A DNA stretch of 33,421 bases from Ralstonia sp. ASV6 (GTDB lineage: Bacteria; Pseudomonadota; Gammaproteobacteria; Burkholderiales; Burkholderiaceae). Both the position numbers and the translations under genes were made by a program. The notes beneath the pieces were generated by a model. It was given only the letters and a program-made list of their open reading frames with translations, was not told the DNA's origin and searched no databases. Of this stretch, positions 4,680 through 17,846 are shown piece after piece. The stretch covers positions 1-33,421 of the forward strand of contig NZ_JAELUI010000055.1 of assembly GCF_016429285.1 (NCBI RefSeq), given 5' to 3'. Each line of letters opens with the position of its first letter. Position 1 is the stretch's first letter.

Positions 4680-7424
4680 ATGCAGAGCAGGCGGGCGGTG
4701 AGGAGCAATCGGCAATGGCGTTGGTCCGCATGGCTAGGTGCCGTTGCGTTGGCGTGTGGGGCTGCTGTCGCGCACGCGCAGCCCACCAGCCCTGATCCGC
4801 AGATCGCCTTCTATTACAGCCGCGATGTACCGGCCCCCGAACTGCAGGCCTTTGACTGGGTGGTGCTCGATCCGGTGGCAGCCGGCACCTTCGACCCGAA
4901 GCAGTCATCGCCCACGTTGTGGCTCGCGCGCGTTGATTTGACACAGCAGGTGGAGGCGATGCGCGACAGCACATGGCCGGCCAACGTGCTCGATCACGTG
5001 TTTGCGCCGTTGCTTGCGCAGGGCTATCAGGGGTTCCTGCTCGATGGGCTCGATACGCTGGCGGCCAAGACCCCGAATGCCGACAGCACGGTGTCGGCAC
5101 TGGTGCAGGCGCTGCATGCGCGTGCCCCGCAGGCCAAGCTCCTGGCGGGCGGCACCGCGTGGCTCGATACGCTGGCGCCGCAGTTGTCCGGCGTGGTCAC
5201 GCCCGGCCTTGTGCGTGAGCGCATCGGCGGCGAAGGCCTGCAAGATGTGAGCGATGCTGATCGCACTGCCCGCGTTGCCACGCTGCGCAGCATTGGCGCG
5301 CAGTACCATCTGCCCGCCGTTGCGCTGGACTATTGCGCCAGCTACGACCGCACCTGCCTGCGCGAGACCGCCAATGTGGCGCGTGCCGCGGGCGTCACCA
5401 GCTACGCCACCACACCCGGCGTGGATTTCATCGGCATCGGTCGCCTGGAGGTCATGCCGCGCCGTGTGCTGCTGGTCGAGCCACAAGAGCCGGGCACCAG
5501 TGCCAATACAGCGCCGTCGGTCCTGTATCTGGCCATGCCGATCAACTACCTTGGCTATCGCGTTGAATTTGCTGACGCCTACAAGCCGCTCCCGCCTGTC
5601 ACACCCGATCGCTACGCAGGTGTCGTTACTTGGTTTGATGCCAACGCACCGCGCCCGGGCGCCTGGGCATCCTGGCTTCGGCGTGCCGTGGGCGCCGGCG
5701 TGCGCGTGGCGATGTTCAACCAGTTCGGCATGAGCATGGATGCGTCGATGGCGCAGACGCTTGGCCTGAAGACCGTACCGGGTACGCCGCAGGGGCCGCT
5801 CTCCATCGTTTCGCGCGACCCGATGATCGGCTTCGAGCTGCAGCCGCATCCGGATCGGCGGACCGCCGTGGGGGTGCAGGTGGACCCAAGCGTGGCCGGC
5901 ATGCAATCGTTGCTGCGCCTGTCGGCGGGCAGCTATACCTATGACGCGGCGGCCATCACGCCGTGGGGCGGTTACGTACTGCAGCCGTTCGGTGTGTTCC
6001 GCATGCCCGACGTGGACCAGGCGCGCTGGGTGATCCAGCCGCTGGATTTCCTGCGCCGCGCACTGGCGTTGCCGGCCATGCCGGTGCCCGACACCACCAC
6101 CGAGAACGGCCGCCGCCTGATGACCGTGCATATCGACGGCGACGGGTTTGCCTCGCGTACGGAGTTCCCACCGGGCGAGTTCTCGGGCCAAGCACTGCTG
6201 CGCGAGATCTTCGAGCGCTACAAGGTGCCGACCACCGTGTCGATCATCGAGGGCGAGGTAGCGTCCGACGGCATGTATCCCAAGCTCACGTCGCAGTTGG
6301 AGCCCATCGCGCGCGCCATCTTCGCGCAGCCGTATGTGGAGCTGGCAAGCCACACGTTCTCGCACCCGTTCAACTGGCTGCGTACGACCAACCCGCCCGA
6401 GCCGCCATACGACAAGGCACCAGAAGGCACCGATTCTTTCGCACTGAACATCCCCAACTACCGTTTCAGCTTCGACCGCGAGATCGCGGGCTCCATCAGC
6501 TACATCAACACGAAGCTGGCGCCTGCGGGCAAGCGTGTGGAGGTGCTGCTGTGGAGCGGCAACGGCCAGGTGCCGCCGATTGCGGTGCAGAAGGCCACCG
6601 AGGCCGGCGTGCTCAACATGAACGGCGGCGACACGTACATCACACGCTCCAACCCGAGCTGGACGGCTGTGGCGCCGCTGGGTGTGGACAAGGGCAATGG
6701 CCTGTTCCAGGTGTTCGCGCCCGAGCAGAACGAGAACATCTATACCAACCTCTGGCACGGCCCGTACTATGGCTTCTCGCGCGCCATCGAAACGTTCGAG
6801 CTGACCGACAAGCCTTATCGCTTCAAGCCGATCGGGATCTACTACCACATGTATTCCGGCACCAAGCTCGCCTCGCTGAGCGCGCTGCGACAGGTGTACG
6901 ACTGGGCGCTCACACAACCGGTCATGCCCATCTACGCATCGGACTACATCCACAAGGTGCTCGATTTCCGCAGCTTTGCCGTCGCGCGTGATGGCGACGC
7001 CTGGGTGGTGCGCGGCAACGGTGATCTCCGAACCGTGCGCTGGGCTGGCGCCGGCGCACCGCGCCTGGCCGATGCACGTGACGTAGCGGGCTACGCGGCA
7101 GGCCCGGGTGGCACCTACATCCACCTGACCAGCGGCTCGGCGCGCTTCACGCTGGACAGCGCCCAGCAAACGCAGCCCTACGTGCGCGATGCCAGTGGTC
7201 GGCTGTCGAACTGGCAGCGCAGTGCGGATGGCCGTTCGCTGTCTGTCGACGTGGCGGGCTATACGCGTCCGTTCATCCGCTTTGCCAACGCCGCGCGTTG
7301 CCGCGCCACCGTGGATGGCCGCGAGGTGACCGGCACGCACGGCGCCGACTGGCGCATTGACCTGGGTGCGGGCAACCCGGCCAAGCTGGTGCCGCAGCGC
7401 GTGGAGCTGACCTGCGGCGCGTAG
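4680..7424 (+). CDS. PelA-like bifunctional GH114 glycoside hydrolase / polysaccharide deacetylase
   Basis: A 914-residue secreted protein (P. aeruginosa PelA is about 948). The signal peptide ends near residue 33 (AHA). Residues about 40-275 match the GH114 barrel (GFLLDGLDT around Asp122; ALDYCASYD around Asp217). A Rossmann-like middle domain spans about 280-420. The deacetylase domain carries TVHIDGDGF (Asp486, Asp488) and the zinc motif ASHTFSHPF (His558, His562), and a beta-rich C-terminus runs to the end. In Pel biosynthesis PelA N-deacetylates and cleaves the GalNAc-rich polymer in the periplasm. The ATG at 4680 is chosen for GAGGA five bases upstream and a clean signal peptide. No pelB-G genes are in the window, so this may be an orphan paralogue. 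It converges with the alginate-lyase-like gene with 7 bases between stops. Confidence 0.88.
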   Translation: MQSRRAVRSNRQWRWSAWLGAVALACGAAVAHAQPTSPDPQIAFYYSRDVPAPELQAFDWVVLDPVAAGTFDPKQSSPTLWLARVDLTQQVEAMRDSTWPANVLDHVFAPLLAQGYQGFLLDGLDTLAAKTPNADSTVSALVQALHARAPQAKLLAGGTAWLDTLAPQLSGVVTPGLVRERIGGEGLQDVSDADRTARVATLRSIGAQYHLPAVALDYCASYDRTCLRETANVARAAGVTSYATTPGVDFIGIGRLEVMPRRVLLVEPQEPGTSANTAPSVLYLAMPINYLGYRVEFADAYKPLPPVTPDRYAGVVTWFDANAPRPGAWASWLRRAVGAGVRVAMFNQFGMSMDASMAQTLGLKTVPGTPQGPLSIVSRDPMIGFELQPHPDRRTAVGVQVDPSVAGMQSLLRLSAGSYTYDAAAITPWGGYVLQPFGVFRMPDVDQARWVIQPLDFLRRALALPAMPVPDTTTENGRRLMTVHIDGDGFASRTEFPPGEFSGQALLREIFERYKVPTTVSIIEGEVASDGMYPKLTSQLEPIARAIFAQPYVELASHTFSHPFNWLRTTNPPEPPYDKAPEGTDSFALNIPNYRFSFDREIAGSISYINTKLAPAGKRVEVLLWSGNGQVPPIAVQKATEAGVLNMNGGDTYITRSNPSWTAVAPLGVDKGNGLFQVFAPEQNENIYTNLWHGPYYGFSRAIETFELTDKPYRFKPIGIYYHMYSGTKLASLSALRQVYDWALTQPVMPIYASDYIHKVLDFRSFAVARDGDAWVVRGNGDLRTVRWAGAGAPRLADARDVAGYAAGPGGTYIHLTSGSARFTLDSAQQTQPYVRDASGRLSNWQRSADGRSLSVDVAGYTRPFIRFANAARCRATVDGREVTGTHGADWRIDLGAGNPAKLVPQRVELTCGA

Positions 7425-15350: not shown

Positions 15351-16043
15351 CTAGTGGCTGCCGGCGAGTCCACGCAGCGCTGTCGCATCGACGATCTCCA
15401 CCGCCCGGTAGTGGCAGCGGATCCACCCCGCGCGCTGCCATGCCTGCAGGTACTTGGAGATGGTCTGCCGCGAGCGCGCCAGCATGCGGCCCAGTTCTTC
15501 GTTGCTGGCGGCGACGGTGCGGCCATCGCCCGCGCGGGCAAGCTGCAGCAGGCGCTGGGCGAGGCGCACATCGGCGGGCATCTCGCTGGCGTGCTCGAAC
15601 TCGTCGAAGATCAGGCGGATGCGCTGGCAGAGCTGCTGCATCAGCGCCCACATGCCGGCCGGATAAGCGGCCACCACGCGCGCAAACGCGGCGCTGCCCA
15701 ACAGGATGAGCGTAGTTGGCCCCTGGGCATGCGCGCTGTGCGTACGGCCGCCGCCGTCGATGAGGGCGATTTCTCCGAACCACTCGCCCGCGCGCAGCAC
15801 GCCATAGACGAGTTCGCTGCCGCCATCGGTCGTGCGGCTGATGCGCACGCGGCCACGCACGATCAGGAACATGCCCTGTGCCGGGCCGCCGTGGGGGTGG
15901 ATGCATTCGCCGTCGGGGTAGGTGATCAGGCGCGCGGCGGGCGCGATCTCGGCCAGCAGGTCAGCGGGGGCGTCACGCAGCCAGCCCTGCGCGAGTTGCG
16001 CGGGGGGAGGAGCGGGGATCGTGTGGGAGGCTTCGGCAGGCAT
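15351..16043 (-). CDS. Crp/Fnr-family transcriptional regulator
   Basis: A 230-residue regulator with an N-terminal cyclic-nucleotide-binding-type beta-roll (about 30-140) and a winged helix-turn-helix (about 160-225; EELGRMLARSRQTISKYL at 182-199). The phosphate-binding cassette reads GEWFGEIALIDGGGRTHSA: Glu91 and Arg100 are where cAMP-binding CRPs have them, though R-T-H-S departs from the usual R-S/T-A. There is no N-terminal Cys cluster, so it is not an oxygen-sensing Fe-S FNR. It is divergent from the HD-domain gene and upstream of the MFS gene on the same strand. A perfect TGTCAA-N4-TTGACA palindrome 35 bases before its start suggests autoregulation. Confidence 0.92.
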   Translation of the reverse strand: MPAEASHTIPAPPPAQLAQGWLRDAPADLLAEIAPAARLITYPDGECIHPHGGPAQGMFLIVRGRVRISRTTDGGSELVYGVLRAGEWFGEIALIDGGGRTHSAHAQGPTTLILLGSAAFARVVAAYPAGMWALMQQLCQRIRLIFDEFEHASEMPADVRLAQRLLQLARAGDGRTVAASNEELGRMLARSRQTISKYLQAWQRAGWIRCHYRAVEIVDATALRGLAGSH

Positions 16044-16077
16044 GTCGGCAGAATGCGGCGAAGGGGGCGCGGCTCAT

Positions 16078-16093
16078 TGTCAAATGCTTGACA
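16078..16093. promoter_or_regulatory. Palindromic Crp/Fnr-type operator candidate
   Basis: TGTCAA-ATGC-TTGACA has perfect 6-bp arms. Arm length and 4-base spacer equal those of the FNR/DNR box (TTGAT-N4-ATCAA), though the bases differ. It sits 35 bases before the Crp/Fnr start and 134 before the HD-domain gene. TTGACA also matches a -35 element. Confidence 0.5.
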
Positions 16094-16129
16094 GTCTGCG
16101 CGCAAGCCCCGGGCAGAGAATGGCTCAGT

Positions 16130-16165
16130 GTTATCCACAGCAGTTATCCACAGTGGTTATCCACA
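16130..16165 (+). repeat. Three tandem consensus DnaA boxes, 13-bp period
   Basis: GTTATCCACA occurs at 16130-16139, 16143-16152 and 16156-16165, all in the same orientation with 3-base spacers (GCA, GTG). Each holds the exact DnaA box TTATCCACA. The array ends 61 bases before the HD-domain gene and overlaps where its promoter should be. No rep, par or dnaA gene is nearby, so a replication origin is not supported. Confidence 0.8.
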
Positions 16166-16226
16166 ACAAGCTGCGCACCCATGACGCGGCATCCCAGACC
16201 GATTCAGGCGACGAAGGAGACACCCC

Positions 16227-16850
16227 ATGACGCACGACACCGCCCCGCGCGCGACGTTTTCCCATATGGAGCACGGCACCCGCGAGGACTGGGCCGCGAT
16301 CTCGGCCGAGTTCATGCCATTTGCCCGTGCGCTGCCCGACCGCGTGCTCGCGCACCTGAAGCTGCTCGACGGCGACTGCGGCGGCTTCCCCATCGACCGC
16401 CTCGCGCACTCGCTGCAGACCGCCACGCTGGCGCACCGCGACGGCCGCGACGAGGAATACGTGGTCTGCGCGCTGCTGCACGACATTGGCGACACGCTGG
16501 GCAGCTTCAACCACCCAGACATCGCCGCGGCCATCCTCAAGCCCTTCGTCAGCCCTGAAAACCTGTGGATGGTCGAGAAGCACGGCATTTTCCAGGGCTA
16601 CTACTTCTTCCACCACCTGGGCCTGGACCGCAACCTGCGCGAGCAATACCGCAGCCAGCCCGAGCTGTTCGAGCGCACCGCCGAGTTCTGCGCCAAGTAC
16701 GACGCCGCCGCCTTCATGGCTGACTACGACAACCTGCCGCTGTCGTTCTTCGAACCGATGGTGCGCCGCGTGCTCGCCCAGCCGCGCAACTCCATTTACG
16801 TGAAAGAAGGTGAGCGCGAACTGTCCAAGCCAAAGGCCGAGGCGGCGTAA
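16227..16850 (+). CDS. HD-domain protein of the PhnZ-like oxygenase / phosphohydrolase type
   Basis: A 207-residue protein with the metal ligand order of HD proteins: His61 (LAHSLQTA), His85-Asp86 (LLHDIGD), His96 (FNHPD), His119 (EKHGIF) and Asp159 (KYDAAAF). Six ligands and the 'AHSLQTATLA' motif resemble the mixed-valence di-iron oxygenases (PhnZ, myo-inositol oxygenase) more than nucleotide phosphohydrolases; this is inferred from memory of those sequences. If so it would oxidise a small phosphonate or polyol-like compound. AAGGAG lies eight bases before the ATG. It is divergent from the Crp/Fnr gene, with three DnaA boxes in its leader. Its stop TAA directly abuts the stop of the convergent lactate dehydrogenase gene. 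The substrate is unknown. Confidence 0.87.
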   Translation: MTHDTAPRATFSHMEHGTREDWAAISAEFMPFARALPDRVLAHLKLLDGDCGGFPIDRLAHSLQTATLAHRDGRDEEYVVCALLHDIGDTLGSFNHPDIAAAILKPFVSPENLWMVEKHGIFQGYYFFHHLGLDRNLREQYRSQPELFERTAEFCAKYDAAAFMADYDNLPLSFFEPMVRRVLAQPRNSIYVKEGERELSKPKAEAA

Positions 16851-17846
16851 CTAGGGCTTCACCACGTTCACGGGCGTGCCGGCAGCCCACGCCGCCACGT
16901 TGGCGAGCGTCGTATCGGCGATGCCCGCCAGCGCCTCGCGGGTGAAGAACGCCTGGTGCGCAGTGACGATGACATTGGGAAACGTCAGCAGCCGCGCGAA
17001 CACGTCGTCCTGCAGCACATCGGCAGAGCGGTCTTCGAAGAAGAGGTCCGCTTCTTCCTCATAGACGTCCAGCCCCAGATGGCCGAGCTGGCCGGTCTTG
17101 AGCGCATCGATCAGCGCGGGGCTGTCGACCAGGCCGCCACGGCTGGTGTTGATGAGCATCGCACCGGTTTTCATGCTGGCCAGCGCCGTGGCGTCGATCA
17201 GGTGGTGGGTGTCGGCGTTCAGCGGACAGTGCAGGCTGACGATGTCGGACTGCGCCAGCAACGCCGGCAGCGGCACGTAGTGCGCACCCAGCGCCGTCAG
17301 CGAGGCCTGCGGAAACGGGTCGAAGGCCAGCACCCGGCAGCCGAAGCCCGCCATGATGCGCGCGAACACCTGCCCGATCTGCCCCGTGCCGACCACGCCA
17401 ACGGTCTTGCCGGCCAGGTCGAAACCGAGCAGCCCATCCAGTGAAAAATCTCCTTCGCGCGTGCGATTGCAGGCGCGGTGCAGCCGCCGGTTGAGCGTGA
17501 GGATCATGCCCACCGCATGTTCGGCCACCGCATGTGGCGAGTATGCCGGCACGCGCACCACCGTCAGCCCCAGGCGCTGCGCAGCGGCCAGGTCGACATG
17601 GTTGAAGCCGGCCGAGCGCAGCGCGATCAGGCGCGTGCCGCCCGCCGCCAGTTCGGCCAGCACCTCGGCATCGAGCGCGTCGTTCACGAACGGACAGACC
17701 ACCTCAAAGCCCGCCGCGAGCGATGCCGTTTGTGCATCGAGGTGCGCGCGCTGGAAGACAAGATCGAAGTGATGCCCGCCGCGCGCGAGGGCGGCGCGAA
17801 AGCTGTCTTCGTCGTAGCGGTGGCTGCTGAAGAAAAGGATGCGCAT
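16851..17846 (-). CDS. ldhA: D-lactate dehydrogenase (D-isomer 2-hydroxyacid dehydrogenase family)
   Basis: A 331-residue cytosolic NAD-dependent enzyme reducing pyruvate to D-lactate. The nucleotide motif is GTGQIG (153-158). Catalytic Arg236 (NTSRGG), Glu265 (DVYEEE) and His297 (TAHQAF) sit one residue off the E. coli LdhA positions 235/264/296. The stretches VRVPAYSPHAVAEHAVGM and DLFFEDRSADVLQDDVF are close to E. coli LdhA as I recall it, making this the LdhA branch rather than a general hydroxyacid dehydrogenase. ATG 17846 starts the fold (MRILFFSS); the longer reading adds ten unsupported residues. It follows the sigma-54 activator gene by 40 bases on the same strand, so read-through is likely. 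Confidence 0.93.
   Translation of the reverse strand: MRILFFSSHRYDEDSFRAALARGGHHFDLVFQRAHLDAQTASLAAGFEVVCPFVNDALDAEVLAELAAGGTRLIALRSAGFNHVDLAAAQRLGLTVVRVPAYSPHAVAEHAVGMILTLNRRLHRACNRTREGDFSLDGLLGFDLAGKTVGVVGTGQIGQVFARIMAGFGCRVLAFDPFPQASLTALGAHYVPLPALLAQSDIVSLHCPLNADTHHLIDATALASMKTGAMLINTSRGGLVDSPALIDALKTGQLGHLGLDVYEEEADLFFEDRSADVLQDDVFARLLTFPNVIVTAHQAFFTREALAGIADTTLANVAAWAAGTPVNVVKP

Follow-up and report, generated by a model that had tools for sequence, protein, structure and literature searches.

The tandem DnaA boxes upstream of a gene for an HD-domain protein (hereafter HD) are best explained, with a probability of roughly 0.55, as a cluster of three high-affinity DnaA sites that was gained in one Ralstonia lineage and that would act as a DnaA sink past the likely HD transcription start, where it might also obstruct HD. 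They belong to the window, i.e., the whole 33,421-nucleotide stretch of DNA analyzed, which is contig C517 of a 5.9-Mb genome in 718 contigs (G000). Of the four arrays of this kind in that genome, one resides in an origin-like element and one is separated by 0.7-1.9 kb from a different such element, so the boxes of the window are very probably DnaA sites; the other two arrays are placed just upstream of metabolic genes, HD and the gene of a sugar-binding protein. Titration of DnaA is plausible as the likeliest role of the window array, and its position makes local repression of HD possible.

As the first-pass annotation had stated, TTATCCACA occurs three times on the plus strand of the window (16131-16139, 16144-16152, and 16157-16165), each copy being exact and the period being 13 bp (35 bp in total). 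The base directly 5' of each box is G, and the linkers are GCAG and GTGG. Elsewhere in the window, allowing up to one mismatch yields a single further match, an isolated TTGTCCACA at 6683. The whole genome contains 30 exact copies of TTATCCACA, versus 7 of the reversed pattern, and the window array accounts for a tenth of them (3/30). If the boxes are taken as independent, which duplicated repeat units would violate, the genome-wide 9-mer count gives an expected number of ~2e-10 in 5.9 Mb for three exact boxes at a 13-bp period, and of ~6e-9 if any equal period of 9-40 bp is allowed. These estimates, together with the genome-wide box count, led us to reject a lone chance cluster, in agreement with the earlier claim that three in-phase boxes are not expected by chance; because of the independence assumption, tandem expansion is still allowed.

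The array is a DnaA-box cluster in the sense of several close matches to TTATCCACA within a short intergenic stretch, and the DnaA of the host possesses the box-binding C-terminal domain (Bac_DnaA_C, E 2.7e-32). An oriC at this locus was rejected because a DnaA-trio is missing there: the trio core (≤3 mismatches) was found three times in the genome, on C171, C181, and C470, and not on C517. An array carried on a plasmid is not supported either, since a blastn search of positions 15900-16900 against plasmids returned seven records, which matched 31-51% of the query at 66-77% identity, always within the HD gene and never over the array. The features of the window and the four arrays are listed in Table 1.

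Table 1. Features around the window array and the arrays of DnaA boxes at 13-bp spacing in three Ralstonia genomes
Feature	Position or setting	Strand	Units	Basis
Divergent Crp/Fnr-type regulator gene	15351-16043	-		cNMP_binding (1.9e-18), HTH_Crp_2 (7e-13)
Inverted repeat TGTCAA-N4-TTGACA	16078-16093	.		candidate Crp/Fnr-type activator operator
Candidate -10 AGAATG of the HD promoter	16117-16122	+		conservation in genus alignment
Three exact DnaA boxes in tandem (13-bp period)	16130-16165	+		window sequence; orthologous arrays in G004 and G006
Ribosome-binding site AAGGAG of the HD gene	16214-16219	+		window sequence
HD-domain protein gene, downstream of the array	16227-16850	+		Pfam HD (3.1e-6)
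Array A (window array)	at the HD gene		3 (G000), 4 (G004), 5 (G006)	
Array B	between the 2-keto-3-deoxy-galactonokinase gene and the periplasmic sugar-binding protein gene		4 in each of G000, G004, and G006	
Array C	738-1881 bp from origin-like element II		4, partly degenerate	
Array D	right-hand end of origin-like element I		3	

The first-pass annotation had proposed a genome-wide scan for clusters with 13-bp spacing, and our genus-wide scan revealed four arrays of at least three boxes in G000 (on C109, C171, C181, and C517); G004 and G006 have arrays at the corresponding four places, as matched by flanking sequence. Two of the five boxes of array A in G006 contain one mismatch, and array B of that genome is found at 2.905 Mb, ~470 kb from the closest origin-like element. 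At the site of element I, the boxes of G002 and G013 are also 13 bp apart, with the outer one mismatched, and in G011 four exact boxes follow one another at 22 bp. The HD gene is present in all 16 Ralstonia genomes, but an alignment of the 16 showed the array upstream of it only in G000, G004, and G006, with a clean short junction there in the other 13. Conservation of the genes without the array, which had been named beforehand as grounds for refutation, was thus encountered in part. It follows that the array is no ancestral regulator of HD, which weakens the idea of an ancestral DnaA promoter for this gene, and that replication control in the genus does not need it. Upstream of the sugar-binding protein gene, the array exists in three genomes and is missing from seven in an alignment of 10 of the 14 genomes bearing the gene; in the four left out (G007, G008, G009, and G011), the genus-wide scan gave no array at that gene.

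Among named database records, the nearest matches of the HD protein are from Ralstonia, the best being that of Ralstonia sp. A12 with 99% identity, and of the 27 named HD loci inspected (L033-L059, of 80), boxes precede HD only in that of A12; the six closest named loci lacking the array comprise five Ralstonia records and "Burkholderiaceae bacterium 26." Strong relatives of the HD protein also occur in Cupriavidus and Pseudomonas. No three-box array (≤1 mismatch) was detected in the other 398 of 399 sampled genomes of the same order, presumably Burkholderiales, a sample without other Ralstonia. Two-box pairs, with one mismatch allowed, are less special: at least one was found in 14 of the 16 Ralstonia genomes and in one of 25 other genomes (G028). 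In a single-locus tree, G000, G004, and G006 are grouped with a support of only 0.88-0.89 and some branches are long (0.37 for G013), and the word "lineage" is therefore tentative. Three viral contigs in IMG/VR also carry three boxes at 13 bp (L304:4612-4646, L305:11597-11631, and L306:799-833), two of which share sequence around the boxes; they might be DnaA sinks of phages.

The elements near arrays C and D are composed of the parts expected of basal unwinding, which have been described as DnaA boxes, a GC spacer, and DnaA-trios (BUS; PMC8287927, in the portion concerned with its architecture). Alignment of 40 distinct elements showed T-rich DNA, TAGTAGTAGATAA trios, a GC spacer, and tandem boxes in the order T-rich DNA, TATA, (A/G)ATAGTAGTAGTAGATAAC, GGTGGATA..., four bases, TGTGGATAA, and AAA-cgCTtt, with further boxes ~180 bp on. 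In composition they agree with BUS, as far as parts recognized from sequence alone can be compared, but they number three per genome and their core boxes are separated by 4 bp, whereas the published search, in its portion on box spacing, assumed gaps of ≤3 bp (PMC8287927). The window array, in contrast, consists of boxes alone, without a trio. All 40 distinct elements have their core box positions 13 bp apart, the first box being degenerate in some, and this spacing is the same as that of the window array.

The copies of the element, each ~280 bp long, are homologous and are located in G000 at ~24959 of C171, ~2172 of C181, and ~6943 of C470 (L148, L149, and L139). Three cores are present in 14 of the 16 Ralstonia genomes and one each in G001 and G007, which are the least complete (90% and 88%); all three share one contig in 5 of the 14 (G006, G008, G010, G011, and G013) and are split over contigs in the other 9. 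In a family-wide sample of 80 genomes, the core was not found in 73, and the seven matching genomes comprised six Ralstonia plus one non-Ralstonia genome, whose only match had two mismatches. A tree of the 40 distinct copies placed 39 in three groups according to locus, leaving L114 of G007 unplaced and joining the third group with a support of 0.68. Since the copies group by locus, the three elements seem to be older than the divergence of these Ralstonia species. They are perhaps of more interest than the window array itself. DnaA-box clusters away from oriC are already known, but in the open-access literature (subscription papers and DoriC itself being outside its scope) we met no match to the dispersed 13-bp cassette or to three origin-like modules, and nothing that combines Ralstonia with the DnaA-trio.

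The relation of the arrays to these elements bears on where in the chromosome the window array lies. The distance from HD to the third element is 11.4-23.8 kb in all 12 genomes that have both on one contig; in the assembly of the window they are on different contigs, and the distance there is given by synteny. The window array thus probably belongs to the origin region without being adjacent to dnaA, and the earlier description of it as lying away from origin genes is right for dnaA but misleading with regard to the origin-like elements. In G006, on a 3.759-Mb contig that starts with dnaA, the elements are at 3.377, 3.516, and 3.540 Mb, and 16 of the 41 exact boxes of this genome fall within 250 kb around them (3.29-3.54 Mb; 12 sites once boxes ≤100 bp apart are merged), an interval that was picked post hoc and contains three of the four arrays.

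Which of the candidate origins fires is less clearly indicated. The cumulative GC skew reaches its minimum at 3.62 Mb (G006) and 3.36 Mb (G011), which is 135 kb and 123 kb, respectively, to the left of dnaA; the trough is broad, and a near-flat step around or right of the third element precedes a further fall (3.34-3.46 Mb of G006:C1 and 3.08-3.20 Mb of G011:C1). KOPS is a motif of Escherichia coli. Counts of KOPS-type motifs, which may not be those of Ralstonia, turn at 13-18 kb in G006 and at 45-76 kb in G011, measured rightward from the contig start at which dnaA sits. In these two genomes, neither the skew minima nor the KOPS turns coincide with any of the three elements, gene orientation is uninformative, and the intergenic DNA before dnaA contains two exact boxes. 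For comparison, the skew of Cupriavidus metallidurans has been reported to turn ~90 kb away from dnaA, with three perfect boxes lying beside it (PMC2864759). A putative double origin, one on the dnaA side and one on the hemE side, was proposed by Gao in 2015 for chromosome 1 of Ralstonia pickettii 12D (PMC4403523), and the present elements likewise represent multiple predicted origins on chromosome 1 in Ralstonia. The two proposals differ in place, because the pair of Gao lies beside dnaA and hemE, whereas the hemE-priA gap of G006 (~3.4496 Mb), with which 12D was matched by gene neighborhood, contains three boxes with ≤1 mismatch and is distinct from all three trio elements. In the stretch of G006 that separates elements III and I, three exact copies of GTTTCACGTGAAAC (parS-type) were noticed beside gidA and a ParA-type gene (G006:C1:3482740-3484341), 275 kb from dnaA.

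A more far-reaching, and in our judgment doubtful, proposal is that chromosome 1 of Ralstonia contains, to one side of dnaA and within a span of ~150-180 kb, three BUS-type origin modules that are homologous to each other, that firing or DnaA loading may occur at more than one of them, and that the 13-bp cassettes gained in one lineage, the window array among them, would rebalance DnaA among the modules.

The surroundings of the window array also allow its relation to HD to be considered. The HD protein matches NCBIfam Phn-HD with an E value of 9.6e-8, yet with 31.7 bits against a cut-off of 214.6, and PhnZ chains with 8.6e-6; it thus weakly resembles PhnZ-type oxygenases, and the label "oxygenase-like" of the first-pass annotation is fair but unproven. 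The inverted repeat upstream of HD is present in all 16 Ralstonia genomes in the alignment, and it may be the binding site of the divergent Crp/Fnr-type regulator. A sigma-70 scan of positions 16000-16300 gave no consensus (E. coli-type) promoter. If the repeat is a Crp/Fnr-type operator centered near -41.5, HD transcription would start at ~16127-16130, the place that the candidate -10 would also predict, directly before the array, which would then span about +1 to +40 of the HD transcript.

This arrangement recalls regulation of a promoter by DnaA, in which the arrays at HD and at the sugar-binding protein gene would have been selected so that the genes follow the DnaA-ATP cycle through roadblock or repression, with titration being incidental. 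Both gene-linked arrays indeed follow the likely promoter or the preceding gene, come before the ribosome-binding site, and share the orientation of the gene, and roadblocking by DnaA is on record for E. coli in the relevant portion of a recent study (PMC11317965). We nevertheless regard such selection as unlikely: HD, with its weak likeness to PhnZ, and the periplasmic sugar-binding protein have no obvious common function, 13 of the 16 genomes keep HD without the array, and the number of boxes varies among the three genomes that have it. That variation, with 3, 4, or 5 units at one site, is compatible with near-neutral copying, in which a short DnaA-box cassette has spread between loci, its unit number has shifted by slippage or recombination, and no role at HD has been selected. 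The HD array of G004 and array B of G006 match at 47 of 48 bases (11 of 12 within the linkers) and contain the same order of box variants despite unlike flanks, whereas in the comparison with array C the linkers agree at just 5 of 12 bases; this near-identity suggests that the cassette was copied between loci. Such near-neutral copying is a real alternative, though an unlikely one in our view, since all four arrays are retained at orthologous places in the three genomes and linker columns vary more than box columns across them. In G000, G004, and G006, variation affects 11 of 126 box columns, versus 15 of 40 in the linkers (p = 6e-5, Fisher test), or 8 of 99 versus 11 of 32 when the HD array, whose register is uncertain, is excluded (p = 7e-4), both p values being limited by the non-independence of alignment columns. 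The lower variability of box columns suggests that the boxes, rather than the repeat as such, are maintained.

Iterons are typically direct repeats, and the repeats might accordingly be iterons of another initiator or regulator that merely resemble the specificity of DnaA; their layout, and its recurrence in the three viral contigs, would fit. However, the 9-mer is an exact DnaA box, one such array belongs to a DnaA-trio element, and TTGTCCACA, the variant box inside the arrays, is one that we take to be of the DnaA type too. In addition, no replication-initiator family was matched among the nine window ORFs scanned (of 156 listed). We therefore consider iterons very unlikely.

If the array is a DnaA sink, as we favor, DnaA would bind it, and the main effect would be to hold DnaA in the origin region and thereby shift the level of free DnaA that sets initiation. 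Bound DnaA covering about +1 to +40 of the likely transcript would also obstruct HD transcription, either incidentally or as a second layer of control, in the manner of the DnaA roadblocking described for E. coli in part of that same study (PMC11317965). In the account given there of binding, E. coli DnaA prefers pairs of boxes 2-3 bp apart, and one base added to a 3-bp gap sharply lowers binding (PMC11317965). By analogy, the 4-bp gaps of the window array speak against strong cooperative binding, but the Ralstonia elements use a 4-bp gap throughout, so Ralstonia DnaA may differ, or consensus boxes may bind singly. Further points that weigh against a sink are the small share of the exact boxes that the window array contributes (a tenth), its absence from 13 of the 16 Ralstonia genomes, the negative sigma-70 scan, and the remoteness of array B from the elements in G006.

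DnaA-box clusters outside oriC are found in Bacillus subtilis. In E. coli, DnaA boxes are concentrated near the origin and titrate DnaA, as outlined in a recent report (PMC12371093), and, insofar as its account of these sites extends, they resemble those described here in being intergenic groups of consensus boxes enriched near the origin. The Ralstonia arrays differ from them in their strict 13-bp, same-strand tandem form and in their lineage-specific presence at four loci, E. coli pairs preferring 2-3-bp gaps in the portion of PMC11317965 cited above. The first-pass annotation had called the array datA/DARS-like. Like datA, DARS1, and DARS2 of E. coli, in the descriptions available to us, the window array is a non-coding DnaA-box cluster distant from dnaA. 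In those descriptions, however, datA and DARS are conserved control loci with nucleotide-switch activity in which IHF and Fis are involved, whereas the site at HD is without an array in 13 of the 16 Ralstonia genomes and thus is not conserved across the species group, which leaves the label unsupported.

Among a small number of related genomes, a cluster of DnaA boxes appears, varies in its number of units, and was seemingly copied from one locus to another, and the occurrence of 3, 4, 5, or no boxes at one site constitutes a natural experiment on DnaA sinks. The natural use of more than one origin per bacterial chromosome was posed as an open question in 2015 (PMC4403523). Ralstonia, with three origin-like modules in 14 of 16 genomes, would allow multiple origins to be tested by copy-number sequencing.
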